Shown: positions 1,652-50,256 of the stretch, one piece after another
Position numbering within the stretch: position 1 is the first letter of the stretch
Layout: the number at the start of each line of letters is the position of its first letter
Origin: a virus
Direction: 5' to 3' (one strand)
IMG/VR virus record: IMGVR_UViG_3300042866_000819
Coordinates: 1 to 51,766 of that record
Length of the DNA stretch: 51,766 bases
Notes under the pieces: generated by a model
What the model was told of the DNA's origin: nothing
Databases searched by the model: none
Seen by the model: only the letters and a program-made list of their open reading frames with translations
Program-made: the position numbers and the translations under genes

Positions 1652-2614
1652 TTATCTCCCTGCCTTTCTGTCTGAGTCAATATACCTACGGATCATTTTG
1701 TTTCTCACTTGGACATTGTCATACATTCCAGCTTCTTTTAATGCCCTCACGCGATCCGCGCTTAATGTGAAGGTCGCTTTCGTGGAGCTACCACTATTGG
1801 CTTCCCTTCCCGATGACTCATTCATACTTCTAGGTCTTTCACGGACAACTCCTTCACTTGAATCATCATCGCCACTGTAATGTTCAGGCAATGTTTTTTT
1901 CAATCGGTTTGTGAACTCTTCCCAATACTTTTCAGTTCTTGGGTTGAATCCCTCTTTCAATAATACTTTGTCAACAGCGACTGCAATGGCCGAGTCTTGA
2001 TCACCGACGTTCGGATCGTACCAAGAATTCTCACGCATCCATTTGCCAGCCATTTCAGCAACAACAGGATCCTGTGTTTGCTGTGGTTGTTTGCTTGCTT
2101 CAGTCGCCTGACGTTTAAGGTTAGCTAACTTATCAACGTTGACCCGCGCTGAGTGCAACATCCTTTGCGCCCCGATCATCGCGTCACCGTCACCGGAGCG
2201 CGTGGCTTTGTTGATCTCCATTTCAGCGTACTCAAGGCGCACCATCTCATCTTCTAGTGCTTTATCCACCCGCACTTGGTCTGCTGCGTTGGTGCGCTGT
2301 TCAACGGCGGATAACCGAGTTAATAGTTGGGCGTTTTCACGCTTCAATTGCTCATATTTGAAATCCTTTTCAGCCCGTTCCTGAACATGCATCTGTTTCC
2401 GGGCTTTGCGCTTCTCACGTCTGATGCGCCTGATTTCTTCGGTGTCGCTGGCCTGATCTACGCCACCATCATCGGGCACGTGGTTTGATTCACCCTCCTC
2501 TCCCTCGTGTTGATCATCTTCAGGCTGCTCAATTTTTGAACTATCGACCTCAACCGTGCCATCACTTTTTTCGACAATCGGCAGTTCGTCGTCTTCTCTA
2601 TGTCCGGCGGCCAT
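1652..2614 (-). CDS. Probable capsid scaffolding protein
   Basis: This 320-residue protein has the usual make-up of a scaffold: a very acidic N-terminus (about residues 1-65, many Glu/Asp), a long charged helix with coiled-coil character (about 65-180, with KRKARKQMHVQERAEKDF), and a basic C-terminal tail ending in RRYIDSDRKAGR that could contact the capsid shell. The gene lies between portal and capsid genes, the classical scaffold position. Its ATG overlaps the stop of the co-chaperonin gene (TGATG), implying coupled translation. No protease is encoded nearby, so the scaffold may be recycled as in P22. The role is inferred from composition and position. Confidence 0.72.
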   Translation of the reverse strand: MAAGHREDDELPIVEKSDGTVEVDSSKIEQPEDDQHEGEEGESNHVPDDGGVDQASDTEEIRRIRREKRKARKQMHVQERAEKDFKYEQLKRENAQLLTRLSAVEQRTNAADQVRVDKALEDEMVRLEYAEMEINKATRSGDGDAMIGAQRMLHSARVNVDKLANLKRQATEASKQPQQTQDPVVAEMAGKWMRENSWYDPNVGDQDSAIAVAVDKVLLKEGFNPRTEKYWEEFTNRLKKTLPEHYSGDDDSSEGVVRERPRSMNESSGREANSGSSTKATFTLSADRVRALKEAGMYDNVQVRNKMIRRYIDSDRKAGR

Positions 2615-3195
2615 CAGTAAATCGCTTTCATGGCGAGGGGGTCGCCTGTCACAGCCGCAATAACTTCATGGTCGTTTAGCACAACGAACAATGCACGCTC
2701 ATCTTTGTCACCGTATGGTACTTCCCATCTGTCACCGCCCCACTTGGGCACGCGGATGTAATCGCCTTCCGCGCACCATGCGCCTTCTGGCCACGGCTCC
2801 ATCGTGTCGCGCTTCTTAAATGCCAGCGGTCCGATCGCGATGACTTTACCCACCATGTTGTTGAATTTTTCGGCATCAGTGGTTTCCTTCACCAACATGA
2901 TGCCTGATTCTGTGGTCTTCGCTTCTGTCGCTTTCAATTGAACAAGTATCCTCGCGCCCAATGGCCGCGCACCCGGAGGGATGACCGGGAATGCCCTATT
3001 CAACCTTTCTTGGTAATCTAATACTATTTCTGCGGCAACCACGCCGGGTTGACCTTCATATTCGCTATCCTTAAAGATGAATCTTCTTCCGAATGCTTGG
3101 TCAGCATCGTTTATTTTCCTTGCAGTAGGCTGCATCCTACCCGCCGCCATATCAGCCGCTAAATCCCGCTTTTGTTCATCCATTAACTGTGCCAT
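2614..3195 (-). CDS. GroES-like co-chaperonin
   Basis: The 193-residue protein has a roughly 77-residue N-terminal extension followed by a GroES-type domain (about 78-183): PLGARILVQLKATEAKT at the first strand, a mobile-loop-like stretch with TTESGIML, then MVGKVIAIGP and a late GDYIRVPKWGGDRWEV strand pair. GroES proteins cap the GroEL folding cage; phage versions such as T4 gp31 let host GroEL fold large capsid proteins. Its place between portal and scaffold genes fits that role. The extension is absent from the usual ~97-residue host GroES. A GAAAGGAAA ribosome site precedes the ATG. Confidence 0.82.
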   Translation of the reverse strand: MAQLMDEQKRDLAADMAAGRMQPTARKINDADQAFGRRFIFKDSEYEGQPGVVAAEIVLDYQERLNRAFPVIPPGARPLGARILVQLKATEAKTTESGIMLVKETTDAEKFNNMVGKVIAIGPLAFKKRDTMEPWPEGAWCAEGDYIRVPKWGGDRWEVPYGDKDERALFVVLNDHEVIAAVTGDPLAMKAIY

Positions 3196-3568: not shown

Positions 3569-6057
3569 GCTTCTCCATTCATAGATTGTTGTATTCTGTC
3601 CTGCAATCCCACAACCGTCTTTTCCTGCTCACCCTTCAGCTTTGCGGCCTCAACAGACAACTCAATCGTTGATATCCGCTCCTTCGTCAGGTTCTGCTCT
3701 GTCGCCATCGCTGCGGTCAGCTCATTCTTCTCTGTTGCTTGTTGGTGTGACAGCTCCAGCTTCTTGCCATCCATCGTTATATCAGCCATATCCTTTTCCT
3801 TGCGCCTCTGTGTCTCAGCGAGTGATGCCTGCAGAATAGGGTCTTGCTGTGGTTGCGGTGCGTACTGCTGCGCTATCTGTGTGAGTTGCTGCAATGCAGC
3901 GGAGAACTGCTGGAAGCCTTGCTCGATGTCGTTGTTTACAGCATGTGCCGCGCCAGCAATGGCGTGGTCTATCTCCCGTAACCCTTTTTTCTTGTCGTAC
4001 TTTGGCTTCAACTCGCCTGTTTCATGTGCTGCGTACTCCTCAACCCTTTGCGTGTACCACAACAGCATGTGCTGTTTGGCGTGCTCTATGGCCGCTGGCA
4101 CAAACACTGGAGCCATTATCGGGTTAGAGCCTAATGCCGGGTTCATCGCGAAGGAGAACAGCGTCTCCAAGTGTGCCAAGTGGTCTTGCTCAGGATACGC
4201 AACAACTGCCCGCCCAATGGCCATCGCTGCGTTCTCGTCTGCCGCGTGCATTTCGATGTTCTTGTTGAACTGCGGCATGATCTCAGCTACGTTCGGCACG
4301 CGCATCTGTTTCATGATCCTGCCATGAACGGCTCTTGGGTCGTACAGGCCGGGGGCTTCCTTCATCAGCTGCAAGATCATTTGGTTCTGCGCTACCCGCT
4401 GACCTTCAGAGAATATGTGCGGGTCGCTGACCGGGATGATGTCGCTGCTGGACGCGAAGTCCGCTTCCGTTACGCCGAACTCCTCCACCATGTCCTGCTG
4501 CTTTTGATCAATCAAATAATACTTGTTGATTCGTTGCAGGATCTTGAGCACACGCCTTTGTGAGTCGTGGAGCTTCGCGTGTATCGAGGAGAACACCACG
4601 GAGCCTTGCTCAATCAGAGCTTGCGTCGTGCCCACTGGCGCGTTGCTTGTGATGTCGGCGATCTTTTCTTCAGCGGTTGTCACCACACCTTTAGCCGCGT
4701 TGGTGATCCATCCTAACAATTCGAACAGCACAGGCGAAGGTGGATTGAACGGCATTGGCATTGCGATCTTGCGGATGTCGTCAACACCTACCGCGCCTTC
4801 AATCTCAACGATCTGCGTCACCTCGACACTCTTCGATTGCCCGGATACTTTCGCGCCCTTGAGCTTGAGCATCGTTGCAGTGTTGTTGATGTGGGCAGTG
4901 TCCAACAGAGCACGCAAAGCACCTGTTGCGCTTGCGGCCAAGCCGCCGATCAACTGGGGCAGGCCGATGGCATACGCACCACGCCATGGAATGAACTTGA
5001 ATTCAACCATCCAATCCAGCCGCTCTAACGTTTCGTCGCCGTCTTCCCAATTGCGATACAGGCCAACGATTGAATAGTCTTGGTCATCGATCATGAGCAT
5101 GTACGGAGCTTCTTCGCCGCCTGTGATCTGGTCGTCCTCCAATGACAGGTTGCAACTCACGTGGTACATGCGCCTCAGGCGTTCTGTGTCGTCGGTGCCT
5201 TGATACTCCTTGCCCTCTATTTTCTGATTAGCCGACTCCGACAACGTGGCATCAGGTGCGAGTGAGGCCGCGCTATAACTGCCGTCCAAGTACAGCCCGC
5301 GCTTGATCCTGCTCCGATACTCGAAGTCAGATATGTCCTGCATTTCGGTGGTGCGCTGCGCACAATAGAAATTGGTCGCGGAGAATGGCAACAGGATCCT
5401 GTCGATGGGTACGAACTCCGCGCATGGACGGCGCTTCTTAGCGTCCCACCACATCTTTAGAAACTGGCTGCCGCCCAATGGTAGCTGGGTTAGCAACTGC
5501 TCGATCTCATCGCGGAACTCGACGATCTGCTCCGTCAACTGCCAGTTCATGAAGTCGCGTTTGCGTTCAGCGATCTCTATTTTGTCTTCTGTGTTTTCAC
5601 CTTTGATGTTTATCCGCACGGGACCATCAGGCGGGAATATCTCTTTCATGCCGCGTGCTGCGAAATCAACACACGCTTCGGCCATAACAGGGTGCGTTAC
5701 ACGTGCCGCGCCGGCAAATGCAGCACCGCCGGGAGCGTCATCGCCCATGCCAGTACGCCTGAGTCCCTCTTCATACTGCTCATCACGCTGCTTCCGCGCC
5801 TCTTTATCTGATTCGATGTTGTAGATGTATTGCAGGGCGAGGCTGGACAGTTCACTCTTGCTCACAACCGCTGCCAAATTCTCGTAGAAGTCGCCGCCCG
5901 ACTGCTGTTCACCGTCCAGCATGACCATGACGGAACCATCAGGCATTTCGACCAAGCCTTGATCCGTCATATCAACAGCGAAGTCTTCGGGCTGATATTC
6001 TTCAGGAGCGTACTGCTCAATGTCTGGGGTGGCTTGTTGTAAGGGGAAGTTATCCAT
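3565..6057 (-). CDS. Portal protein (head-tail connector)
   Basis: This 830-residue protein is the large portal type found in podoviruses with P22-like tails. The portal dodecamer forms the vertex through which DNA is packaged and ejected. Visible features are an acidic N-terminus, a conserved block around HPVMAEACVDFAARGMKEIF, the LPLGGSQFLKMWWD segment, a clip/stem region, and a long Gln-rich coiled-coil C-terminus (about 690-825, with LTQIAQQYAPQPQQDPILQ) that could form a barrel inside the capsid. It follows the small terminase gene and precedes co-chaperonin and scaffold, the standard packaging/head order. Start codon context has no clear Shine-Dalgarno. Confidence 0.88.
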   Translation of the reverse strand: MDNFPLQQATPDIEQYAPEEYQPEDFAVDMTDQGLVEMPDGSVMVMLDGEQQSGGDFYENLAAVVSKSELSSLALQYIYNIESDKEARKQRDEQYEEGLRRTGMGDDAPGGAAFAGAARVTHPVMAEACVDFAARGMKEIFPPDGPVRINIKGENTEDKIEIAERKRDFMNWQLTEQIVEFRDEIEQLLTQLPLGGSQFLKMWWDAKKRRPCAEFVPIDRILLPFSATNFYCAQRTTEMQDISDFEYRSRIKRGLYLDGSYSAASLAPDATLSESANQKIEGKEYQGTDDTERLRRMYHVSCNLSLEDDQITGGEEAPYMLMIDDQDYSIVGLYRNWEDGDETLERLDWMVEFKFIPWRGAYAIGLPQLIGGLAASATGALRALLDTAHINNTATMLKLKGAKVSGQSKSVEVTQIVEIEGAVGVDDIRKIAMPMPFNPPSPVLFELLGWITNAAKGVVTTAEEKIADITSNAPVGTTQALIEQGSVVFSSIHAKLHDSQRRVLKILQRINKYYLIDQKQQDMVEEFGVTEADFASSSDIIPVSDPHIFSEGQRVAQNQMILQLMKEAPGLYDPRAVHGRIMKQMRVPNVAEIMPQFNKNIEMHAADENAAMAIGRAVVAYPEQDHLAHLETLFSFAMNPALGSNPIMAPVFVPAAIEHAKQHMLLWYTQRVEEYAAHETGELKPKYDKKKGLREIDHAIAGAAHAVNNDIEQGFQQFSAALQQLTQIAQQYAPQPQQDPILQASLAETQRRKEKDMADITMDGKKLELSHQQATEKNELTAAMATEQNLTKERISTIELSVEAAKLKGEQEKTVVGLQDRIQQSMNGEA

Positions 6058-6059
6058 GT

Positions 6060-7550
6060 TTAGTTATGCATCGTCATGCGCTGGACATCTAGTGAAGGCT
6101 CAACCCAGCCGCCATTGGCCATCTTTTTTGGTTCTGGCGGGTATAGATGCGGGTTTGCCAGCTTTTGTAGTTCGATGAACTCCTCCATGGTGAGTGCTCC
6201 CGGTATTTCTCGACCAGCAGCTTTTAACGCTTCGATCTCGGCAATGGTGAATACTTTGTGTGGATCAAATAAGCCGGCATTGGCAAGGTCAGCGTATTCA
6301 TCGAACGCGCCCTTCTTCACATAGTCCTGCATCATCGGAGTCAGTTCGTTGCGATACTCGGGGTTTTTCTCCATCCACTCTTTGACGCGCTGGCTTTCCC
6401 AACTGTTGCCGAATGGCTTCATTTCTGCGAGCCGCCTTACACCCGGCGTGTCCGAATAGTTTACTGCCTGTTGATATGCATTCTGAACATGCGGCCTGCC
6501 TGTTGAATCAATTAGCACATGCAGCTCGCTGTCGCCGCCATATTTTAGTGCTGCCGCTTCACCCTGCGTACACCAGCCACCAGCGCATCCGACCTCCTGC
6601 ACCTTTCGCAAACCTTCGGGCGTATCTACGCCGGGCAACTTCCTCCAGCTATGGCCGCTAGGGTATTCATGTATCACTGGCAGTTGCAGGTTGCCAGCGA
6701 AGCCAGCGTCTTCCGCCTTCCGCGACAACGCCTCAGCTTCTTGGTTGGCAGTGTGCGTCATCCTGACGGCATCATGGAAAGCCATTCGACTTAATGACTC
6801 AGGACGAAGCGTTCCATCAGCCAGCTTGTTTCGCAGGACGTCTACTACGTGATTAAAGCCAAGCGCTCCTGGCCATTCGTGAACACCGTAAACCGTTTCG
6901 TCCGGAGGCAATTTGGAGAGCCAAGGTTCTTCCCTCAGCGTCCCCGCCGATTGATCTGAGACTTTTGCGCTGGTTATTGCTTCATCCGAAGCGGATTCCC
7001 AACCTCTCGCGGCTTGCGAGATGCCACGCGGCTCAGGGAATCCTGCAATGCTTCTTTTTGCTGCCAATGCGTTTGCATCAGCAACGCGATTATTGTTAGC
7101 GAAATCCTTATGCACGATACCCTGCTCCGCCAACGCTCTGACTCTATCCCCCTCTGTTCCCATTTCGTTCTTGATGTATTTGGGGATGGCGGTGTTGATC
7201 CATTTACCGAGTGACGATAAAGGGACAGGAACAGCGCGGTCACCCATGAAATCCTCCACAGACTTGTTGAGCCAATTGCCGCCTTTATGCTTGACGATCC
7301 CGGCCATCCCGGCACCACCAAACTGCGCAGCAGCTTCACCCGGATCCATTCTCCCCCATCGTGCAGCTTCTTCCGCCAACGTGCTCAATGGGTGTGTGAT
7401 GCGCTCACCAACACCTTCCATGTAAGTCTGCGGTTGGTTCTGAATGCTAGGACGGCCATCACCCTGCATGCCTGCCTCGTAGAGAGAACGAGGTGACGCC
7501 AGTGCCATCCGCATAGCGTCAAGGCTCATTTCACTGTTGGCAGTGGGCAT
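6060..7550 (-). CDS. Large virion-module protein of unknown function with a PcfJ-like motif
   Basis: This 496-residue protein sits between small terminase and portal. Around residues 323-362 it carries VGCAGGWCTQGEAAALKYGG followed by ELHVLIDSTGRPHVQ. A 'G.WC...Y.....L.V..D..G.PHV' pattern of this kind is seen in PcfJ-type and other phage proteins; that similarity is from memory. The C-terminus ends in KKMANGGWVEPS, one of several GG-hydrophobic tags shared with other late proteins of this genome. It may be a minor head protein or one co-injected with DNA, but the sequence does not settle it. Confidence 0.5.
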   Translation of the reverse strand: MPTANSEMSLDAMRMALASPRSLYEAGMQGDGRPSIQNQPQTYMEGVGERITHPLSTLAEEAARWGRMDPGEAAAQFGGAGMAGIVKHKGGNWLNKSVEDFMGDRAVPVPLSSLGKWINTAIPKYIKNEMGTEGDRVRALAEQGIVHKDFANNNRVADANALAAKRSIAGFPEPRGISQAARGWESASDEAITSAKVSDQSAGTLREEPWLSKLPPDETVYGVHEWPGALGFNHVVDVLRNKLADGTLRPESLSRMAFHDAVRMTHTANQEAEALSRKAEDAGFAGNLQLPVIHEYPSGHSWRKLPGVDTPEGLRKVQEVGCAGGWCTQGEAAALKYGGDSELHVLIDSTGRPHVQNAYQQAVNYSDTPGVRRLAEMKPFGNSWESQRVKEWMEKNPEYRNELTPMMQDYVKKGAFDEYADLANAGLFDPHKVFTIAEIEALKAAGREIPGALTMEEFIELQKLANPHLYPPEPKKMANGGWVEPSLDVQRMTMHN

Positions 7551-7820: not shown

Positions 7821-8348
7821 TTAGTCTTGCGAAGTGGTGCGTCTGGTCAGCTCCATGTTCTTGATGATCTCGGCCATTCGGTCCATGTTGTCGCTGGACT
7901 CGCGCACGTCAACAGCGATTGCATCATCCCGACCAGTGCCTGCCAGGACAGTTCTGTCACCGTATTCAACTGGATTGTAGGCTTTTGCACGCCAGCGATA
8001 GTGTGATGCAATTTCCCGTGCGATAGCCACCGAACCCGCGACAGAGGTATCAGCACTGCGCAATTCGTTTACCGCCTCTTCGTCCCAGTGTCGGGCGGAG
8101 ATGGCGCGTGCCTCCTTGATTTTTGCCGTGCGCTCAGCGTTGGCCAGCACCCATGCGCACATGTGAGAACAGGAAATACCCTGACTGCGGGCGATCGAAG
8201 CTTGAGACTCGCCATTCATTATGCGTTCAACAATTTCATCTTCGATGTCTGTTAGCCGTTGGTGGACAGGAGAATCAGGTTTAGTTGCACTCTTCATATT
8301 CGCGCGGGACGTTCGTTTTTTGAATGACAAAGGCGTGATATTTTCCAC
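7821..8348 (-). CDS. Terminase small subunit-like DNA-binding protein
   Basis: The 175-residue protein carries a helix-turn-helix at about residues 36-72 (IVERIMNGESQASIARSQG, then a recognition helix) followed by a helical part with a conserved SHYRWRAKAYNPVEYGDR stretch typical of phage small terminases. Such proteins recognise the packaging start site and regulate the large subunit. It is the first gene of the leftward late unit and directly flanks the palindromic intergenic region. The start is GTG at 8346-8348, 11 bases after GAGGAG; an in-frame ATG 17 codons later lacks a ribosome site. The large subunit is encoded far away on the other strand. Confidence 0.78.
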   Translation of the reverse strand: MENITPLSFKKRTSRANMKSATKPDSPVHQRLTDIEDEIVERIMNGESQASIARSQGISCSHMCAWVLANAERTAKIKEARAISARHWDEEAVNELRSADTSVAGSVAIAREIASHYRWRAKAYNPVEYGDRTVLAGTGRDDAIAVDVRESSDNMDRMAEIIKNMELTRRTTSQD

Positions 8349-8442
8349 ATGAAATAATTCTCCTCGACTATTTGGAATAAAGCAAGCTATTTATTGCACC
8401 AAGCACCTTTCCCTCAATTCTCCCCCAGCTCATTCCATTTTA

Positions 8443-8563
8443 CGAATGTGGGGGGCTGTGGGGGTGCAAGAAGCACGACCCCTATAAATCATATTTCCCC
8501 TTAGATTCTGCTTATGGTTTATAGGAGTCCACGATCTTAGGGGGGCACAGCCACCCACATTCG
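8443..8563. repeat. Concentric imperfect inverted repeat
   Basis: The outer arms 8443-8460 and 8546-8563 are reverse complements at 17 of 18 positions (CGAATGTGGGGGGCTGTG against its partner). The inner arms 8481-8492 and 8514-8525 match at 11 of 12 (CCTATAAATCAT). Both pairs share the same centre near 8503, so this is one 121-bp symmetric site with two conserved zones, not two chance repeats. Symmetry suggests binding of a dimeric or multimeric protein, or a cruciform. Confidence 0.8.
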
Positions 8564-8600
8564 GAGGGTGCATTATTGAGCTTGATGCCAAAAATAAAAT

Positions 8601-8629
8601 TTGCCAAGCAAAACTTTTCCAGGCATAAT
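8601..8629 (+). promoter_or_regulatory. Rightward early promoter
   Basis: TTGCCA (8601-8606), a 17-base spacer, and CATAAT (8624-8629) form a near-consensus sigma70 promoter about 30 bp before the first rightward gene. The TTGC start of the -35 box and the 17-base spacer recur at 11122, 20460 and 23067. Host RNA polymerase would be sufficient; no phage RNA polymerase gene is visible. Confidence 0.7.
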
Positions 8630-8659
8630 TTCAAACCTCAGACTTAGGCAGGGGCACCC

Positions 8660-8932
8660 ATGGCATTATCAGAACGAGAAATTTCCTGGCAGAAAAACAA
8701 CCAGAGCAAGATCGACTCAGCAGCAAAGTTGCTGGAAAAACTAAATTGGCCGCAAGTCGTTTACTCAACGGCATTCAACTGTGACAGAGACAGCATTCCT
8801 TTGGTGGCAAAAATACTCGGGTATAAAATCAGGCGATGTTCTTGGACGGAAGACGGAGTCTGGCGCAACAAGGACGGATCACTAAAAGCATTTGTACTTT
8901 ATGAAAGGGAGAAGAAGGATGGCGAGGCTTGA
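8660..8932 (+). CDS. Hypothetical early protein
   Basis: The 90-residue protein is the first gene of the rightward unit. It begins MALSEREISWQKNNQSKIDS, with GGCAGGGGC before the ATG, and its end overlaps the prim-pol gene by 14 bp. It looks helical at the N-terminus and mixed afterwards. I do not recognise a family; the coupling suggests a partner of primase/helicase or an early host-takeover protein. Confidence 0.6.
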   Translation: MALSEREISWQKNNQSKIDSAAKLLEKLNWPQVVYSTAFNCDRDSIPLVAKILGYKIRRCSWTEDGVWRNKDGSLKAFVLYEREKKDGEA

Positions 8933-11078
8933 GATTTTATCAGCGGCAAAAAAATACATCGCAATGGGCTGGAAGGTATTCCCGTGTCACACAATTTCAG
9001 AAGACGGTGAGTGCTCTTGTGGCAGGAAGGCGTGCACAGACGCTGGCAAGCACCCGAGAACAGATACAGGATTGAAAGAAGCATCATCAGACACCGACCA
9101 AATAGAAGCGTGGTTTGGGGCAGGCTCTCCGCCGTCCAATATCGGAGTCGTTACTGGCAAGGTTTCTGGCATCACCGTGATCGACATCGACATCGGCCAC
9201 GGCAAGCTCGGTGCAGAGAGCTGGTCGGCACTCATAGCGGAAAAAGGCGAGCCGAACACATTGATGTCAAAGACTGGAAGCGGAGGCCTCCATGTGCTAT
9301 TCAAATACAACTCGGCATTGAGGACAGGCACAAACAGGCTCGGGAAAGGAATCGACATACGCGGAGACGGAGGATACATCATCGCTCCTCCATCAAGGCA
9401 TCGCTCCGGCGGGGTCTACGAATGGATGAACGACACGCAGCTAGACGATCTTCCGGAGCATCTTCTGGCGAAGAAGAAAGATTTGCGCGGAAGCTACGAG
9501 CGACAAAAGAAATACACGGCTGTGCAAATAAAGAAAATGCTAGACCACATTCCGCAGGAAGACAGAGACACCTGGAGGAATGTCGGCGTTATACTCGGCA
9601 GAGAATTCTCTCGCTCAGAGGACGCCTGGAAGATGTATTGCGACTGGTCTGGCGAGTGGGAAGGAAAGAAGGGCAGAAACCACGACGAGATAATGAAGGA
9701 GGCATTTTACGTCATCAGTCAAGATCCAACTTCCGGCAGCAATCTTTCCGTCGGCACTCTCGTTTATTTGGCAATAGGAGGAGGCTGGACGCCAGAGACA
9801 GGCGTTGTGCCGATACAGAACTTCGTATTTTTCGCTCCTGGCAACAATTACATATATCGCCCAACCGCCAGCTTTTGGATAGGAGCGGCAGTCGATTGTG
9901 CCGTTGGCAAGGTCAATAGCGAAGGCCAATTGTTGAAGGCTTCTCAGTGGCTGCAACAACACATGCTCGCCACCAGCATGACGAAAACACCAGCACTGGA
10001 AGGTGATTACATAAAAGGCTTCGATTGCAGGGAAGGAGACTTGATCGTAGAGACGGGTTCCGCCGTGTTTAACGCATACAGGAGGCCTGTGATTGAGCTG
10101 GGTGATGCCAACCTAGCTTCCCCATTCCTTGACCACGTCAAACGTGTGTTTGACAAGCCGGGCGATGCTGACCAATTTTTAGACTATATGGCACACAGAG
10201 TGCAGTTCCCTGCACAGAAGCCAAGATTCGCACTATTGATCGCTGGAGATCAAGGTGTCGGCAAAGACACCGCTGTGGAATTCTGCGTCCCTGCCATCGG
10301 AGCTTGGAATGTAGCCAACACAGAGCCTGCAATATTGGATTCCGCATACAACGAATACGTCACGGCCACGCTTGTGCGCGTTAGCGAGGCGGCTAATCTG
10401 CACGACATGAGCAAGTGGGCTTTCAACGAGCGCATGAAAGTACTCATTGCAGGCTCTCCGGATTACGCAACCGTCAACCCGAAGTACGGTCACACCTATT
10501 CTGTCAAAATGCATTGTGGCGTCATCGTGACAACAAACCACCTGTTGACTGGCATTTACATTCCATCAGACGACCGACGCTACGACGTCATAGACTGCGC
10601 ATCAAAGAGCGCAATGGGGCTGACAGACGACACAAAGGTGAAGGAATATTTTACGGTGCTGTGGGAGTGGTTCAACGATGGAGGATTCGCACACGTGGCA
10701 GCACTGCTACATCGTCGTGACATCAGCAAGTTCTCTCCGAACAACGGCCAGCGAAAGACCTATGCCCACCAGAGCGTGGTCAGCTCATCATTCACTTCCG
10801 ACCATGAATTCCTGGATGCGCTACACGAGATGGGGGAACCAGACATGCTGCGCAGTGACGCGATAATGGCAGTGCTTATGCGCAATGGATCGGGACACGC
10901 AAAGGACTATGGAGGAAGGCTGTCACCCGCCTTGATGCGCCAGAAATACTTCATTCATCGCAATCCATTGCGTGCAGACTCACGCTGGAAATACGACGGA
11001 AAACTTGCGACAGTATATGTAAAGCAAGGGTCGGACCCGACGAATGAGAAGCTACAGAGCTTAAAAGTCCCATTCTAA
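8919..11078 (+). CDS. Bifunctional primase-polymerase / helicase
   Basis: The 719-residue protein has three parts: an N-terminal prim-pol domain (about 1-165) with the metal-binding VIDIDIGHGK, GGLHVLF and a GDGGYIIAPPSRH block; a PriCT-like linker (about 195-280, HIPQEDRDTWRNVGVILG and DEIMKEA); and a C-terminal superfamily 3-like helicase with Walker A AGDQGVGKDT near residue 440, then an SPDYATVNPKYG segment. Such proteins prime and unwind at phage and plasmid origins. I choose the ATG at 8919 because AAGGGAGAAGAAGG lies just upstream. Its place beside the palindromic control region suggests the replication origin may be nearby. Confidence 0.88.
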   Translation: MARLEILSAAKKYIAMGWKVFPCHTISEDGECSCGRKACTDAGKHPRTDTGLKEASSDTDQIEAWFGAGSPPSNIGVVTGKVSGITVIDIDIGHGKLGAESWSALIAEKGEPNTLMSKTGSGGLHVLFKYNSALRTGTNRLGKGIDIRGDGGYIIAPPSRHRSGGVYEWMNDTQLDDLPEHLLAKKKDLRGSYERQKKYTAVQIKKMLDHIPQEDRDTWRNVGVILGREFSRSEDAWKMYCDWSGEWEGKKGRNHDEIMKEAFYVISQDPTSGSNLSVGTLVYLAIGGGWTPETGVVPIQNFVFFAPGNNYIYRPTASFWIGAAVDCAVGKVNSEGQLLKASQWLQQHMLATSMTKTPALEGDYIKGFDCREGDLIVETGSAVFNAYRRPVIELGDANLASPFLDHVKRVFDKPGDADQFLDYMAHRVQFPAQKPRFALLIAGDQGVGKDTAVEFCVPAIGAWNVANTEPAILDSAYNEYVTATLVRVSEAANLHDMSKWAFNERMKVLIAGSPDYATVNPKYGHTYSVKMHCGVIVTTNHLLTGIYIPSDDRRYDVIDCASKSAMGLTDDTKVKEYFTVLWEWFNDGGFAHVAALLHRRDISKFSPNNGQRKTYAHQSVVSSSFTSDHEFLDALHEMGEPDMLRSDAIMAVLMRNGSGHAKDYGGRLSPALMRQKYFIHRNPLRADSRWKYDGKLATVYVKQGSDPTNEKLQSLKVPF

Positions 11079-12398: not shown

Positions 12399-12484
12399 AA
12401 CATTTCATCCTTGACTGCGTACTGCCGATATTATTCGGCGCGATTGTCGCGTTCCTGTTCGTCTACGCGGTACTCAGCGCATGA
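12395..12484 (+). CDS. Small single-pass membrane protein
   Basis: A 29-residue peptide, MKHFILDCVLPILFGAIVAF at the start, followed by a short hydrophobic end. It is almost entirely one hydrophobic helix. ATGA overlaps on both sides and AAAGGAAGC before the ATG support real translation despite its size. Its function is unknown; early phage membrane peptides often affect the host envelope or superinfection. Confidence 0.5.
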   Translation: MKHFILDCVLPILFGAIVAFLFVYAVLSA

Positions 12485-12672
12485 AAGGCGGCGCGCGACC
12501 CGGAGCAGGGCGCAAGCGTCTGCCACCCCACCTCCGCAAGAGCAACATCACAGTGCGCGTAACCCCTGCCGTCGCGCAATGGCTGCGCGCACAGGAACAA
12601 AGTTACTCAGCATTGATTAACGCGCTACTCGCCACCGCGATGTGGCAAGACCAACCAGAAAGAGGAGGATAA
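12481..12672 (+). CDS. Ribbon-helix-helix-like DNA-binding protein
   Basis: The 63-residue protein opens with MKGGARPGAGRKRLPPHLRK, the basic GARPGAGRK lead-in common to small phage and plasmid DNA-binding proteins, then a strand (NITVRVTP) and two helices, as in the ribbon-helix-helix (CopG/Arc) fold. It is probably a transcription regulator, a good candidate to act at the repeats or promoters of this genome. Its 3' end contains the ribosome site for the next gene. Confidence 0.65.
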   Translation: MKGGARPGAGRKRLPPHLRKSNITVRVTPAVAQWLRAQEQSYSALINALLATAMWQDQPERGG

Positions 12673-17186: not shown

Positions 17187-17710
17187 CCATTTCCATTATA
17201 CTGGATTGTGAAACAACGGGCTTGCCGCTCCCGGACTGCGCAGATCTGGACAAACAGCCATGCATCATCGAGCTTGCCGTTGCCAGAATCGAGGGTGGTA
17301 AGATCGTCGCCGAACACTCATGGTTGATGAATCCTGAGCGTCCGTTGGAAGCGATTATTACCAAGATAACAGGGTTGAAAGACGAAGACCTGGTCGACAA
17401 GCCAAAGTTCCGAGAATTGCTAGGCGAAATCGAAGAAGCATTCGGCGGTGCAGATCAACTTATAGCCCACAATGCACCGTTTGATGTAGGGTTGCTAGGG
17501 TTTGAGTTGTCCAGAGCCTGCAGGACTGGTTTCCCATGGCCTAAAACGACGATATGCACCGTACAGGAGTTCTTCCACGAGAAGGGCAGGAGATTGACAC
17601 TTGCCCAGCTGTATGAATTGAAGCTCGGACGGCCTTTAGCGCAGACACACAGGGCAATGGATGATGTCAGAGCACTTGCTGAAATTTGCATTCACGAGAG
17701 GATTGTATGA
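17183..17710 (+). CDS. DnaQ-like 3'-5' proofreading exonuclease
   Basis: The 175-residue protein is a DEDDh exonuclease: Asp8 and Glu10 in ILDCETTGLP (Exo I), IAHNAPFDVGLL (Exo II, Asp near 99) and THRAMDDVRAL (Exo III, His near 156 and Asp near 160). It corresponds to the epsilon subunit of DNA polymerase III. Its stop overlaps the start of the polymerase alpha gene as ATGA, so the two are probably made together and work as a proofreading polymerase. Confidence 0.9.
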   Translation: MTISIILDCETTGLPLPDCADLDKQPCIIELAVARIEGGKIVAEHSWLMNPERPLEAIITKITGLKDEDLVDKPKFRELLGEIEEAFGGADQLIAHNAPFDVGLLGFELSRACRTGFPWPKTTICTVQEFFHEKGRRLTLAQLYELKLGRPLAQTHRAMDDVRALAEICIHERIV

Positions 17711-20451
17711 TCCAGCTACGCATCAGGACGGAATTCACATTTGGGCAGACTTATGCTCCCATCGACAAGGTGATTGCCCACCTCAAGGAAACGGGGTGCA
17801 CGGCAGCAGGAATTGTTGACCAAGGGAGCACATGGGGGCACGTCAAGTTCTTTAATAAGTGCAAGGAGGCAGGAATCAAGCCGCTATTGGGGGTTGAACT
17901 TGTCGTGACGGACGATTCCGACGAGTCTCCGCGTATGTGGTTTATTGCCAAAAATATGGAAGGGTTGCAGGAACTATATCGTTGGTCAAGCAAGACATAC
18001 CAGCAGCAGCTTCCCGGCAAACGCGGAGCTATCGCTGGTCTGCGCCGAGCAGATGTGATGAATATGTCAGACAACATCATCAAGTTCGCAGGGGACATCA
18101 TCGACGAAGAGTTCTTGAAGGAAGTCGGGGCATTCGCCGACATCAGTCCGGCCAGTCGAGTGCTGGCTATGAAGAAGCGGTCGATTGGATTGCCAATTGT
18201 CGGTGTGTCGGACAACTCGTACATTAAGCCGGAGGACTCAAAGACATTCGACTTCATGGGAGGTGGCAGGAAGCCTTCGCCGCAACACATATTGCTTGAA
18301 TTGGAAGGACAGGACGTTGCGCAGCAGATCGTCGACAGCATCACGCTCGACGCGCTGCCAAAAGCACCGATGATACGCGCAGAAGGAGATGTAGAGGCAT
18401 TGTGCCGTGAGGGCATAAAGTTCCGCAGGATGGAGGAAATGTGGACAGAAGAATACGAGCAGAGATTGCTATATGAATTGGGATTGATCAGAAGCAAGGA
18501 TTATGATGCTTATTTCATCATCGTCGCAGACATGGTGTGCTATGCCAAGCAACGCATGCTGGTCGGTCCATCAAGAGGATCAAGTGCCGGATCTTTGGTT
18601 TGCTATCTAATGCGCATCACAGAGGTGAATCCAATTCCTCCAAAATTGATGTTTGAGCGATTCATAGACATTAACCGCTCTGACCTTCCGGACATAGACC
18701 TGGACTTCCCCGATAAGAAGCGCCACGTTGTGTTTGAGTATATGGCCGAAAAGTACGGCGTCGAGAATACAGCGCACATCGGAACGGTAAGTGTATACAG
18801 ACCGAAGAGCGCATTGGTGCAAGTTTGCAAGAAGTTGAACATTTCGCCGTCTGCCACGGCAGCTGTAAAGGTCGCGATGATTGAACGTGGGTCTGCCGAC
18901 TCACGCTCGACCAGTTGTCTGGAAGACACGCTCAAGACGACAGATCCAGGGCGTAAGCTGGTCGAAATGTATCCGCAAGTGGTGATTGCCACCGAGCTGG
19001 AGGGGCACGCATCACACACGGGTGTCCATGCGGCAGGCCTGTTGGTGTGTAATGATAATATAACCAACTATTGCACCGTTGATGATAACGGTATCGCGCA
19101 CGTCGAGAAAGGCGCGGCAGAAGAGCTTGGATTACTAAAGATTGACGTTCTTGGTCTGCGCACTCTTGGGGTGCTGGAAGACTCCGGGGTGCCGATTGAC
19201 TGGTACAATCTGAAGTTCGACGATCCTGCCGCCTATGCCGTGTTCAACAGCGGAAGGTACAGCGGAATATTTCAATTTGAGGGGAGCGCATTGCGTTCTG
19301 TTGGAGGGCAGATAGACTTCACATCAATGGTGCAGATCGATGCTGTGACGGCACTGGCTCGTCCCGGTCCATTTGGTGGTGGTGTAACAGAGAAGTATAT
19401 TAACCGCAGCAATGGCGAGAAATATGATCAATTGCACCCGGCTGTTGCGCAATATATGTCGGAGACATATGGTCTTCCGATTTACCAAGAGCAGGTGATG
19501 GCAATTGTTCGTTACATCGGCAACTTCAATTGGGAGGACGCATCATTCATCCGCAAGTCAATGGCCAAACGGCTTGGATCGGAATTTTTCAATACATTTT
19601 ATGCGAAATTTGAAGAAGGTGCTATCAGCAATGGTCTTACGAAGGCACAAGCGGCAGACATTTGGGAATTGATAAAGGTGATGGGCACGTGGTGTATGAA
19701 CAAGGCTCACACCTATAGTTACGCCATCATCAGCTACTGGACGGCTTACTTGAAGGCGCACCACCCGATGGAATTTGCTGCTGCCAACTTGCGCAATGCT
19801 AAGGACGAGGAAAGTGCTGTCGGATTGCTTCGCGAGATGGTTAAAGAAGGGTTGAAATATATTCCATTCGACATAGAAAGGTCTGAAGAGCATTGGGCGG
19901 CGAAAGGTGATGTGTTGTACGGAGGCTTTATGAATCTTCACGGCTTCGGAGAAGCGAAGGCGAAGAAGTTTTTGGAGGCACGCAATGCAGGAAAGTTGAC
20001 GCAGAAGATGCGCGAAGATGTGGCAAGTGCGCAAAATATATTCTCAGACTTGTTTCCGTTCAGGACGAAGTACGGCCAAATGTATGATGATCCGAGCGGC
20101 AACGGGTTGGGGGGAGAATTGAGTCACATCGAAGACTTTGATGGTTCGCAATTTGGAAGCCACTTGTTGCTCGGAGAGATCATCTACAAGAACTTGCGGG
20201 ACATCAATGAGGATGTAAACGTCAAGAAGCGCGGAGGGAAGGTCGAAAAAGGACAGCCAACATTCATCGATCTAAGGTTGCGCGACGACACTGGCGAAAT
20301 GTTAGCCCGTATCCATCGTTTCGATTACAAACGGATAGGCGAAGAGCTATTCAACACGATTCCGGAAGGAGCACACCTGTTGGTGCGTCTCAAGATTTGT
20401 CGCGGCATCAAGTTTGGCATCATCGAAAAATGGAAAAGAATTGATGTGTAA
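17707..20451 (+). CDS. DNA polymerase III alpha subunit-like replicative polymerase
   Basis: The 914-residue C-family polymerase has an N-terminal PHP domain, palm residues in PDIDLDFPDKK (near 330) and LLKIDVLGLRTL, and GPSRGSSAGSLVCYL plus fingers with KAHTYSYAIISYWTAYLK. Bacterial DnaE is about 1,160 residues, so this one is short and its C-terminal OB/clamp part is reduced. The PHP domain looks inactive: the usual H.H/H.S start is TEFTFGQTYA and the later metal ligands are replaced (IVDQGSTWGH). The start ATG follows GAGGATTGT. No clamp or loader is encoded, so it must borrow the host's or work without. Confidence 0.92.
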   Translation: MIQLRIRTEFTFGQTYAPIDKVIAHLKETGCTAAGIVDQGSTWGHVKFFNKCKEAGIKPLLGVELVVTDDSDESPRMWFIAKNMEGLQELYRWSSKTYQQQLPGKRGAIAGLRRADVMNMSDNIIKFAGDIIDEEFLKEVGAFADISPASRVLAMKKRSIGLPIVGVSDNSYIKPEDSKTFDFMGGGRKPSPQHILLELEGQDVAQQIVDSITLDALPKAPMIRAEGDVEALCREGIKFRRMEEMWTEEYEQRLLYELGLIRSKDYDAYFIIVADMVCYAKQRMLVGPSRGSSAGSLVCYLMRITEVNPIPPKLMFERFIDINRSDLPDIDLDFPDKKRHVVFEYMAEKYGVENTAHIGTVSVYRPKSALVQVCKKLNISPSATAAVKVAMIERGSADSRSTSCLEDTLKTTDPGRKLVEMYPQVVIATELEGHASHTGVHAAGLLVCNDNITNYCTVDDNGIAHVEKGAAEELGLLKIDVLGLRTLGVLEDSGVPIDWYNLKFDDPAAYAVFNSGRYSGIFQFEGSALRSVGGQIDFTSMVQIDAVTALARPGPFGGGVTEKYINRSNGEKYDQLHPAVAQYMSETYGLPIYQEQVMAIVRYIGNFNWEDASFIRKSMAKRLGSEFFNTFYAKFEEGAISNGLTKAQAADIWELIKVMGTWCMNKAHTYSYAIISYWTAYLKAHHPMEFAAANLRNAKDEESAVGLLREMVKEGLKYIPFDIERSEEHWAAKGDVLYGGFMNLHGFGEAKAKKFLEARNAGKLTQKMREDVASAQNIFSDLFPFRTKYGQMYDDPSGNGLGGELSHIEDFDGSQFGSHLLLGEIIYKNLRDINEDVNVKKRGGKVEKGQPTFIDLRLRDDTGEMLARIHRFDYKRIGEELFNTIPEGAHLLVRLKICRGIKFGIIEKWKRIDV

Positions 20452-26551: not shown

Positions 26552-26807
26552 ACGAATTGTAAGGGACGCCGAGTGTTACCAGTGGACGGGTGATAATACT
26601 CAGGAAATCGTAGATTTTTTAGGTAAGCACGGCATGGTCGGCAGTCTATATCGAGACAAGTTCCTATCGGTACGAAAAGACGGATTCGTCGTGCATACGA
26701 TGTGGCCTGGCAGTTGGGTGATAGAAGGCGAGGATCACGAAATCAGGTTTTACAGCGATGAAAAGTTTCGGACGATGTACCAAACTATCCCGCAAGGGTT
26801 GTCGTGA
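26535..26807 (+). CDS. Small conserved phage protein
   Basis: The 90-residue protein (MKPTHRRIVRDAECYQWTGD at its start) has the pattern 'P.A.Q..G....V..F' and MWPGSWVIEGEDHEIRFYSD, typical of small phage proteins with a 'PGDW.' core. The role is unknown. A strong AAGGAGGCGGCAG ribosome site precedes the ATG, within the previous gene. Confidence 0.6.
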   Translation: MKPTHRRIVRDAECYQWTGDNTQEIVDFLGKHGMVGSLYRDKFLSVRKDGFVVHTMWPGSWVIEGEDHEIRFYSDEKFRTMYQTIPQGLS

Positions 26808-26820
26808 TTTTTCATAACGG

Positions 26821-27085
26821 GGTGCGCTGATGTTGAACCCAGTCTTATCAGCGTAGCACGCGGCGGTATGGTTCACGGCGTAAATAAACTGCCAAGCCGC
26901 CCAACCTCTGCCCTCAACAATCGCAATGAGGGAACGAAAACTGGAAAGCGATGACAGCTTGGAAAGACAAGCACCAACACAGCTGCACCCTGTTCCTGCG
27001 ATCTGCGATTAAAGGGTAAATCGCTTTCCCTGTGGGCGCGGACAGGTTCAGGGTGCAGCTGTGTTGGTGAACGTAGCGGCAACAC
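26821..27085 (+). ncRNA. Structured non-coding region upstream of the large terminase gene
   Basis: No gene is plausible here (26808-27103). Stems by eye: CGCTGAT/ATCAGCG (26825-26831/26847-26853); CCCTCA/TGAGGG (26911-26916/26927-26932); a perfect 21-bp pair at 26972-26992/27049-27069; GCGATT/AATCGC inside its loop (27005-27010/27019-27024); and GGAAAGCGAT/ATCGCTTTCC (26943-26952/27020-27029), which crosses the 21-bp stem as a pseudoknot. GTGTTG/CAACAC (27061-27066/27080-27085) competes with the 21-bp stem just before the next ribosome site. No U-tract follows, so a plain terminator is unlikely. A phage ncRNA, a leader switch or a packaging/DNA site are the options. Confidence 0.55.
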
Positions 27086-27208: not shown

Positions 27209-28606
27209 ATGGATGTTGACATACTATCAAGCGTTAACTGGAAGGCACTTCCGAGTGCTGACAGAATAGCGTATGTGGCGCATGCTGAATGGCTTAGCAA
27301 AGCACACCCGTATCAAGTGCCGCCGCCTATGGAGATGGATTGGTACGTATGGCTCTTGCTTGCTGGCCGTGGAGCCGGGAAGACCGCTGCCGCTGCCGAG
27401 GGTCTTTGGTGGTGGGCGTGGACGTATCGATTCAGGAGCTTGGTTCTGGCACCCACCAGTAACGACTTGAAGCACACTTGTTTTGAGGGTCAGTCGGGCT
27501 TGCTAAGCGTGATTCCCAGCAAATTGATCCAGTCCTACAATAAATCCGAGCATCAGATCATCCTAACCAACGGTGGTTCAATTCGCGGCATATCCGCTGA
27601 CTCTTATGAACGCTTGCGCGGTCCACAGTTTCACGCCGCGTGGTGCGACGAATTAGCAGCATTCAACTATCTCGGAGAAGGTCAGGCATGGGACATGATG
27701 AACATGGGCTTGCGCTTGGGTGACAGTCCGCGTGTCATTGTGACAACCACGCCGCGTAACAAGGAGTTGATTCTCGAACTCATAGATCGTGAGGGTGATG
27801 ATGTAATCATAGACCGTGCCACCACATACGCAAACATCAAGAATCTCTCCAGCACATTTTCCAAGCAGCTAGAGAGGTACAAGGGCAGCAAGCTGTACGA
27901 CCAAGAGGTATTGGGGCAGGTTATTGATCTTGAGGTCGGCAAAGTAGTTAGCAGGTCGATGTTCAAGCTGTGGCCGCATTCGAAAGCGTTTCCGAAGTTT
28001 GAATACATTGTGCAGAGTTATGACTGCGCATTTACTGACAAACTGTGGAATGACCCTACGGCCATGACCACATGGGGGGTTTTCAAGCCGCTTGATGGTC
28101 CGATGTCGATTCTGCTTATCGATTGTTGGGAAGAGCACCTAACCTTCCCAAGCCTCAAGCCGAAAGTGATTGAAGAATTTGGAGTAGTGTACGGCGAAGG
28201 CGTTGATGCAAGACGGCCTGATATGATACTGGTGGAAGACAAAGCTGCTGGAATTAGCTTGATTCAAGAACTCCAGAAAGCCTACCTGCCAGTCAGGGCA
28301 TGGAATCCGGGCAGGGCAGATAAAATGCAAAGGCTTCAAATAACAGCGTCTGTATTCACGTCTGGCCGGGTATGGCTTCCTGAGAACAAAACCAAGCGCG
28401 GGTATGTGAGAGGTTGGGCAGAAGGTATGTTGAGCCAGCTTTGCAGCTTTCCAGATAGCACTCGTGATGACTACGTGGACTCGACCACACAGGCTATACG
28501 GTTCCTGTCAGACACCGGATGGATTGAAATAAACTCACAACCATATGACCCAGATTCAGATTCAGACGAAAGCAACGATATGCAAGGCAACCCATACGCA
28601 GTTTAA
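27209..28606 (+). CDS. Terminase large subunit (packaging ATPase/nuclease)
   Basis: The 465-residue protein has Walker A LAGRGAGKTAAAAEG (about 51-65), Walker B HAAWCDELAAF (about 145-155), the coupling motif VTTTPRN (C-motif), and RNase H-like nuclease residues in YDCAFTDK, ILVEDKAAG and DDYVDSTTQA. It drives DNA into the procapsid and cuts the concatemer. It is encoded at the end of the rightward unit, opposite in strand and about 19 kb from the small terminase gene, which is unusual. Its acidic tail (SDSDESND) follows the nuclease. Confidence 0.93.
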   Translation: MDVDILSSVNWKALPSADRIAYVAHAEWLSKAHPYQVPPPMEMDWYVWLLLAGRGAGKTAAAAEGLWWWAWTYRFRSLVLAPTSNDLKHTCFEGQSGLLSVIPSKLIQSYNKSEHQIILTNGGSIRGISADSYERLRGPQFHAAWCDELAAFNYLGEGQAWDMMNMGLRLGDSPRVIVTTTPRNKELILELIDREGDDVIIDRATTYANIKNLSSTFSKQLERYKGSKLYDQEVLGQVIDLEVGKVVSRSMFKLWPHSKAFPKFEYIVQSYDCAFTDKLWNDPTAMTTWGVFKPLDGPMSILLIDCWEEHLTFPSLKPKVIEEFGVVYGEGVDARRPDMILVEDKAAGISLIQELQKAYLPVRAWNPGRADKMQRLQITASVFTSGRVWLPENKTKRGYVRGWAEGMLSQLCSFPDSTRDDYVDSTTQAIRFLSDTGWIEINSQPYDPDSDSDESNDMQGNPYAV

Positions 28607-49575: not shown

Positions 49576-50256
49576 TTAAATGGTAGATTGTTGAACGATG
49601 GTCAATGATACTGACCCACCGCCCGAATTAACGAGTACCCTGATTGCCCGCATCAATGTGGTTGTTACCCCCGATGTTTGGCTAGCCGTGGCTGTTGTTA
49701 GCGCGGCTGTTGGGTGCGCTACGACTTGATGCGCTAACGTATTGTCGAACGGGTCTTCGTTTGTATACTGAACCGAATAATTGATAGTTCCTGTTACGGT
49801 AGCCGATATGTTTGTCACTTGATTCGGCACATAAATATCAAGCGGTATCCAGTCAGTAGAGCCGGATTGCAGCGTTCCAGCCGTTATCGCTGCCGCTGTT
49901 GCCGCTGACGTTGCTATCCTTGTTACTGTTTTAAATGACTTTGCAGTTGATACTGTAGCAATATTGCCACCCGCTAGAGTTTCACTAATTAAAGATCCGC
50001 CATTATTAGTCCCATAAACTGTGAATGTCATACCACTATCATTCCCGGCTGATGCTATCGAGACTTTTCCTGAAACAGACAGTGTAGCGACAACCTTCTC
50101 CACTTCTGGCGGAATCTGTGAAACAAATTGGCTTGTGGTCGCCGCCAATGATCCATTAAGCGTCACATTAGTTGCAGATGCTGGCGACTGGCTTAACGCA
50201 ATAGAATTGGCACTAAGGGCTGCGTAGCCTCCCCATGTTTTGCTTATTGGACGCAT
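49576..50256 (-). CDS. Beta-rich virion protein
   Basis: The 226-residue protein is Thr/Ser/Val-rich (NVTLNGSLAATTSQFVSQIP, SASETLAGGN-like strands, VRTLVNSGGGSVSLTIVQ end). It resembles capsid-surface or fibre-type beta proteins. It follows another such gene after the capsid, with AAGGAGATTAATC ahead of its ATG. Function unknown. Confidence 0.55.
   Translation of the reverse strand: MRPISKTWGGYAALSANSIALSQSPASATNVTLNGSLAATTSQFVSQIPPEVEKVVATLSVSGKVSIASAGNDSGMTFTVYGTNNGGSLISETLAGGNIATVSTAKSFKTVTRIATSAATAAAITAGTLQSGSTDWIPLDIYVPNQVTNISATVTGTINYSVQYTNEDPFDNTLAHQVVAHPTAALTTATASQTSGVTTTLMRAIRVLVNSGGGSVSLTIVQQSTI

Follow-up and report, generated by a model that had tools for sequence, protein, structure and literature searches.

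What does a large palindrome between two divergent operons do for the virus that carries it? This question is raised by IMG/VR virus record IMGVR_UViG_3300042866_000819, which was analysed from position 1 to 51,766 (this whole stretch of 51,766 nucleotides is called the window below) and which carries a 121-bp symmetric element between the gene for a small terminase (TerS) and that for a primase. An original prediction, made from the sequence of the window, had named a repressor or terminase site and a replication origin as possible functions. Comparisons with related phages and with known replicons lead us to consider that the element is probably a phage replication origin, bound by the primase-helicase initiator encoded beside it.

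Two concentric pairs of arms under selection

The predicted architecture is largely that of the DNA. The outer 18-base arms pair at 17 of 18 positions and enclose 85 nt, both pairs of arms share the single predicted centre within a total of 121 bp, a less conserved zone lies between them, and the element stands, as described, beside the small terminase gene and the primase operon (Table 1). The inner arms needed correction: they are present at the shared centre, but the 12-nt version with 11/12 matches was too short and sits inside a 17-nt pair with 15/17 matches. The expectation that two arm pairs on one centre are improbable by chance was confirmed as well. The palindrome in the 311-bp intergenic region scores 15, a value reached by none of 1000 dinucleotide shuffles (the best scored 13), and, with the outer arms given, equally good inner arms appeared at the shared centre in 2 of 20,000 shuffles. 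When the whole window was shuffled (n = 6), no palindrome scoring at least 15 appeared. The folding of the element gives z values of -4.8 and -4.7 on the two strands as RNA, and of -5.8 as DNA. Both concentric arm pairs are real, and chance explains neither of them.

The original prediction had made conservation of the arms in relatives the test of the site, and conservation was what we found. Compared with L011, an IMG/VR contig from a different sample, the element has 1 substitution in 121 positions, whereas the flanking intergenic DNA has 21 in 190 (11%; Fisher p = 0.0004); the divergence of the same contig from the window is 13.8% in the left flank, 8.3% in the right flank, 15.5% in TerS, and 5.7% in the primase gene. 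Judged by these substitutions, the element is under strong purifying selection, beyond that on its surroundings. A more distant contig, L012 (85% identity between the primase proteins), has a homologous element that is also 121 bp long, with 26-bp arms. In the 121-bp register, the two elements share 63/121 identities in the orientation of the primase and 78/121 when one is flipped. Because the flipped alignment is better, the centre is inverted relative to the primase gene; in other words, it is the - strand of the window centre that matches the + strand in L012. Three base pairs differ between the window and L012 by double compensatory changes. The element occurs as a single copy in the window, an exact pattern search of IMG/VR matched only close relatives and L012, and a DNA similarity search of the "phages" collection gave no relatives of it.

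Association with the primase gene

The closest solved relative of the initiator is the NrS-1 phage polymerase, to whose C-terminal helicase part it is matched by Foldseek (E = 5e-13) and hmmsearch (E = 4.8e-12). The C-terminal 117 residues of the initiator (612-728) are predicted to form a winged helix, with a predicted local distance difference test (pLDDT) value of 79, and this end of the protein is probably a winged-helix domain. As for the HUH-type nicking endonuclease that a rolling-circle double-strand origin would require, none was seen in the initiator, the one protein of the window searched for it; matches there were confined to Prim-Pol, PriCT-2, and DUF5906, with a weak one of VapE type. 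Between the element and the primase gene lies a small open reading frame (ORF), 8660-8932, which encodes a stand-alone relative of the initiator's C-terminal winged helix. It is recognised by a hidden Markov model of stand-alone copies (hmmsearch E = 1.4e-6), is aligned with primase C-termini by hhalign (probability 93%, E = 3e-7), and has a homologue (58%) in G001, the contig of L012. Stand-alone winged-helix genes are found near the primase and the palindrome in G004, G007, G017, G020, G022, G023, and G025, and adjoining the primase in G011 and G021.

Which of the neighbouring genes the element goes with can be seen from two contigs. G001 has the palindrome, the primase, and the small ORF upstream of it, but its TerS and large terminase (TerL) are different, and the ribbon-helix-helix protein was not found there. 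G027, the contig of L008, has a TerS of the window's type (83%) and the ribbon-helix-helix protein (95% over 42 aa), but neither the primase nor the palindrome. By this double dissociation, the palindrome goes with the primase, and, because of the gene content of these two contigs, TerS and the ribbon-helix-helix protein, both of which had been proposed to bind the site, are disfavoured as its partners.

The same association appears in a wider survey, in which whole contigs of primase relatives (about 30 viral contigs and two bacterial metagenome-assembled genomes, the relatives being mostly metagenomic contigs) were scanned for palindromes. Most of the phage contigs whose primases are related have a palindrome of ~111-136 bp in which the arms are rich in GC and the centre is rich in AT. 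It usually adjoins the primase gene, between it and TerS, and the mean GC content of the centre is below that of the arms in 25 of the 25 elements compared. Under fixed criteria (a palindrome score of at least 13 and a span of 95-140), they were detected in 19/24 primase contigs and in 4/17 phage contigs without Prim-Pol (p = 0.001), the second set being smaller per contig. Nine of 24 palindromes lie within 1 kb of the primase gene, a zone that makes up 5.6% of the sequence (p = 3e-6), and lower thresholds add elements in G005 (17707-17834) and G023 (6301-6420). In G003 and G006, the element is directly 3' of a helicase gene, ~10 kb or more from both primase and terminase, and yet in its arms it resembles the elements of phages that have it next to the primase (21/24 for G003 against G005). 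Arm similarity increases with primase identity (Mantel r = 0.42, p = 0.002), even where the element has moved, as in these two contigs. It does not track the terminase family: terminase families cut across arm types, and G003/G009 and G005/G022 have common GGCCGTGT repeats with different terminases. The centres share a consensus in primary sequence only within subgroups (TATAAAAGATTTAATTAAATA...GGGAAAGGG). Among isolated phages, Vibrio phage pYD21-A has a palindrome (L106 7679-7802) with the layout of the window, and Vibrio phage K300 has one near TerS, far from the primase. Because the isolated phages H188, H40/1, Sf11, Milano, and ZP6, which have a related Prim-Pol domain, lack such a palindrome near the primase, the rule is not valid for all Prim-Pol phages.

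Three further observations were made during the survey. G010 (L049, L051) has three palindromes with a common arm sequence (5718-5844, 49760-49873, and 49853-49985), two of which overlap near the primase while one lies far away; perhaps this phage has two origins. A phage without detectable Prim-Pol (G032) has a similar palindrome, L119:2254-2371, with a span of 118 and arms that repeat AAGTAACA, upstream of the terminase. The isolated Roseobacter phage RDJL3, whose primase is only distantly related, has a palindrome (L098:3105-3249; arms 21, loop 103) upstream of its DNA polymerase gene.

Stem-loop origins and repeats in the arms

An experimentally characterised element of this kind is the stem-loop of the Sulfolobus islandicus plasmid pRN1 (Berkner et al. 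2014, PMC4234260; Joshua et al. 2013, PMC3869888), and it lends support to the replication origin among the originally predicted functions, as do the association with a Prim-Pol/SF3-helicase initiator and the homologous elements in relatives. The pRN1 stem-loop is 100 nt long (21-nt stem, 58-nt loop) and required for replication; it is sufficient together with the rep operon, its loop is required, and it is functional when moved (PMC4234260). Berkner et al. also noted that stem-loops of this type are conserved in structure but not in sequence, that the pRN1 origin lacks iterons, and that the ORF904 protein has no nicking activity, and they proposed the same stem-loop origin for Bordetella phage BIP-1 (PMC4234260). 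As controls, our scanner returned the known pRN1 origin as the top palindrome of the plasmid (5084-5183, arm 21, loop 58) and, in BIP-1, a 104-bp palindrome at 26607-26710, which is the proposed stem-loop.

Because the scanner recovers both elements and they share several features with that of the window, the latter most likely works like the pRN1/BIP-1 kind. With its span of 121, arms of 18, and loop of 85, it agrees with an inverted repeat of ~100-130 bp with arms of ~20 bp and an AT-rich loop of ~60-90 nt, beside a gene for an initiator with Prim-Pol, helical PriCT-type, SF3 helicase, and (predicted) winged-helix domains. This domain order is that of BIP-1/BPP-1, again in a tailed phage. 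Structure is kept while the arms diverge (19/24 contigs and the three double compensatory pairs), and, as in pRN1, a gene for a small regulator (here a putative one) lies ahead of the initiator gene. There are also differences. In pRN1, there is no second, inner zone of arms, and the small neighbour is ORF56, not a winged-helix relative; PriCT-2 and DUF5906 belong to the window's initiator. The stem-loop of pRN1 lies 54 bp downstream of the initiator gene, and the BIP-1 palindrome, which is unrelated in sequence, is also 3' of it, as are those of most relatives, whereas the element of the window lies on the 5' side of the gene, from which one ORF separates it. Because the pRN1 stem-loop works when moved (PMC4234260), position 5' or 3' seems to mark a variant rather than a function.

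Other systems resemble parts of this arrangement. The NrS-1 phage polymerase (PDB 6k9c, 6k9e, 6lrb), compared as a protein, has Prim-Pol followed by a hexameric SF3-like helicase. The SaPI Rep protein is an SF3-like helicase that loads itself and, apparently as two hexamers, uses its C-terminal domain to bind iterons adjacent to the rep gene (Ubeda et al. 2007, as described in PMC7581432); SaPI origins are described as iteron origins, however, and not as stem-loops. The alpha protein of phage P4, with its ori and Cnr, is also among the closest known systems. The P4 primase is of the TOPRIM type, however, and the origin of P4 is not known to be a single large palindrome (see also PMC4234260).

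The arms themselves contain short tandem repeats. In the left arm of the window, TGTGGGGG occurs twice with 10-bp spacing; the right arm has one full unit, the mirror image TGTGGGTGGC at 8559-8550 on the - strand, and the second unit is reduced to TGTG. When a repeat was defined as a 7-mer recurring (6/7 or better) at 9 or 10 bp within the outer 26 nt, 15/22 elements were positive, compared with a mean of 1.1 and a maximum of 5 in 1000 shuffles. The positive elements include pRN1 (TGTCCATAG TGTCCAACT), BIP-1 (TGCCTCGTT TGCCTCGTT, a 9-bp tandem repeat), and the window (TGTGGGGGGC TGTGGGGGTG). In addition to this test set, G005 has a 10-bp repeat, and pYD21-A and G032 repeat at 8 bp; no repeat was seen in G023. 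Because the arms often hold tandem 9-10-bp repeats, and because a winged-helix relative is encoded at 8660-8932, the "stem-loop" may, on the strength of these sequences, consist of inverted iterons that flank an unwinding region and are bound by the initiator.

We infer the following course of binding, melting, priming, and replication direction, together with a role for the small protein. The C-terminal winged-helix domain of the primase-helicase would recognise the short repeats in both GC-rich arms. Given the mirror symmetry of these arms, a pair of SF3 helicase hexamers could load facing each other, melt the lower-GC centre, and prime synthesis there. For the protein of ORF 8660-8932, binding to these arms or to the initiator is probable, as is a role in tuning initiation. 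More tentatively, and as a reading that we consider possible rather than probable, the "stem-loop origins" of Prim-Pol/SF3 replicons, including pRN1, might be read not as hairpins but as duplex DNA, with an unwinding region between two opposed sets of tandem 9-10-bp iterons. Two initiator hexamers would load head to head as in SV40 and papillomavirus, the stand-alone winged-helix copy of many phages would compete for the iterons and set the replication level, and the hairpin would merely result from the mirror symmetry of the iterons. An arrangement of inverted iterons about an AT-rich centre could reconcile the reports of no iterons and no binding in pRN1 with iteron binding in SaPI. For the recognition of pRN1-type origins by their initiators, more than 20 elements with initiator-tracking repeats and, in many cases, a separate winged-helix gene nearby offer a direct test of hairpin versus iterons. 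They also offer a practical rule for finding origins in phages with Prim-Pol/DUF5906 initiators, whose origins are mostly unannotated.

Objections, rival explanations, and other features of the window

Several observations weigh against an origin of this kind. The element lies 5' of the initiator gene and between divergent operons, whereas it is 3' in pRN1 and most relatives. Berkner et al. did not detect that the replication protein of pRN1 binds its stem-loop specifically (PMC4234260). Foldseek listed mainly winged-helix regulators for the C-terminal domain of the initiator, none of them significant (best E = 0.19). The repeats were spotted by eye ahead of the formal test; in pRN2, a hand count gave only 5/7 at 9 bp, and pDL10 and pSSVx have no clear repeat. 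No convincing palindrome was found in G002, G011, and G013, and the contig of G026 ends too soon. The cumulative GC-skew minimum does fall on the element (8443) but coincides with the coding-strand switch, and among co-directional relatives it falls away from the palindrome. Because the minimum follows the coding strand and lies elsewhere in these relatives, GC skew was rejected as evidence for an origin. Finally, the near-identical contig L003 (IMGVR_UViG_3300037517_000373) ends at window position 8561, 2 bp short of the end of the right outer arm. It ends inside this arm as a DNA terminus might, and other contigs run through; some small room is left for a terminus. Another close contig, L006, ends at window position 8372.

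The end of L003 and the distance of only 95 bp to the TerS gene, which the element precedes in most relatives, are what speaks for a site (cos or pac) at which the small terminase would recognise the DNA for packaging. Such a site should follow its cognate terminase across relatives, and this is not the case: G027 has the same TerS without the element, G001 has the element although its TerS is unrelated, and arm sequence does not vary with the terminase family. In addition, the elements of G003 and G006 are far from the terminase, TerL of the window is not adjacent to TerS but 19 kb away (27209-28606), and pRN1, a non-viral plasmid, has the same kind of element, so that a terminase site, as originally suggested, is very unlikely. 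The repressor option fares somewhat better, although it too is unlikely. The arms would then be an operator bound by the stand-alone winged-helix protein or the initiator, repressing the divergent promoters, and replication would start elsewhere. The element is indeed 38-158 bp upstream of a good promoter (8601-8629) between divergent operons, its mirrored repeats suit a dimeric regulator, and P4 Cnr and pRN1 ORF56 are described in the literature as small copy-control proteins of such replicons. However, the element of most relatives is 3' of the primase gene, or of a helicase gene in G003 and G006, rather than among divergent promoters; a spacer of low GC content and conserved size (centre below arms in 25/25) would be unusual in an operator; and the loop of pRN1 is itself needed for replication (PMC4234260).

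Folding far above that of shuffles would also be expected of a structured RNA, regulatory or for packaging, encoded between the operons. The stability, however, is similar on both strands, and the arm mismatches of the family have no wobble bias (6 G.T and 11 A.C of 50). Rfam gave no match at the gathering score in the window and none at E <= 1 in 8380-8660, and, because the predicted + strand promoter lies downstream of the palindrome, the element would be outside the primase mRNA. A second palindrome of the window (26972-27069), in which the + strand folds better and stems covary, provides a contrast, and an RNA at the primase locus seems as improbable as a packaging site. Least credible of all is a miniature inverted-repeat transposable element or other mobile insertion. 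Inverted terminal arms, a total of ~120 bp, and the inverted centre in L012 are what one would look for, but no target-site duplication is visible at the flanks by inspection, the window has a single copy, and neither empty sites nor extra copies were seen in the contigs of close relatives. The arms, moreover, vary between phages in step with the primase, and the element is under strong purifying selection. A replication origin recognised by the initiator thus remains the explanation that we prefer, and its parts are listed with the neighbouring genes in Table 1.

Table 1. Coordinates of the candidate origin, its parts, and adjoining genes in the window
Feature	Position	Strand	Remarks
Whole palindromic element, candidate replication origin	8443..8563	.	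121 bp, centre 8503
Outer left arm	8443..8460	+	18 nt, 17/18 complementary to 8546-8563
Outer right arm	8546..8563	+	Partner of 8443-8460
Inner left arm	8477..8493	+	17 nt, 15/17 complementary to 8513-8529
Inner right arm	8513..8529	+	Partner of 8477-8493
Less conserved zone separating outer and inner arms	8461-8476/8530-8545
Lower-GC centre, putative unwinding region	8467..8539	-	~40% GC
First repeat of the left arm, TGTGGGGGGC, putative iteron	8447..8456	+	7/7 self-match at lag 10
Second repeat of the left arm, TGTGGGGGTG, putative iteron	8457..8466	+	Lag-10 self-match
Predicted sigma-70-like promoter TTGCCA-17-CATAAT for ORF 8660 and primase	8601..8629	+	-10 region conserved in L012
Stand-alone relative of the initiator C-terminal winged helix	8660..8932	+	90 aa, between element and primase
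Initiator: Prim-Pol (PF09250), PriCT-2 (PF08707), SF3-type helicase (DUF5906, PF19263), C-terminal winged-helix-like domain	8892..11078	+	728 aa
Sf6-type small terminase, divergent neighbour	7821..8348	-	phrog_1482, PF20901; palindrome association not conserved

Beside the small terminase gene, a 496-aa gene (6060-7550, -) had no match in Pfam, PHROG, or NCBIfam. Elsewhere in the window are a gene for a GroES-like co-chaperonin (2614-3195), the ribbon-helix-helix protein mentioned above, which is BrnA-antitoxin-like (12481-12672), and a DNA polymerase (17686-20451) of the DNA polymerase III alpha type; its assignment to family A proved to be wrong.

The second palindrome (26972-27069, +) has perfect 21-bp symmetry and lies ~140 bp upstream of the large terminase gene. 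TerL relatives at 49-77% identity are without it, and no credible Rfam family was found for it. A close relative of the phage (TerL 99%) has a palindrome of identical architecture at the corresponding site (L109:628-724, +); of 34 pairs, 10 differ by double compensatory changes and one is broken. This palindrome looks like a structured RNA, possibly a packaging or leader RNA.
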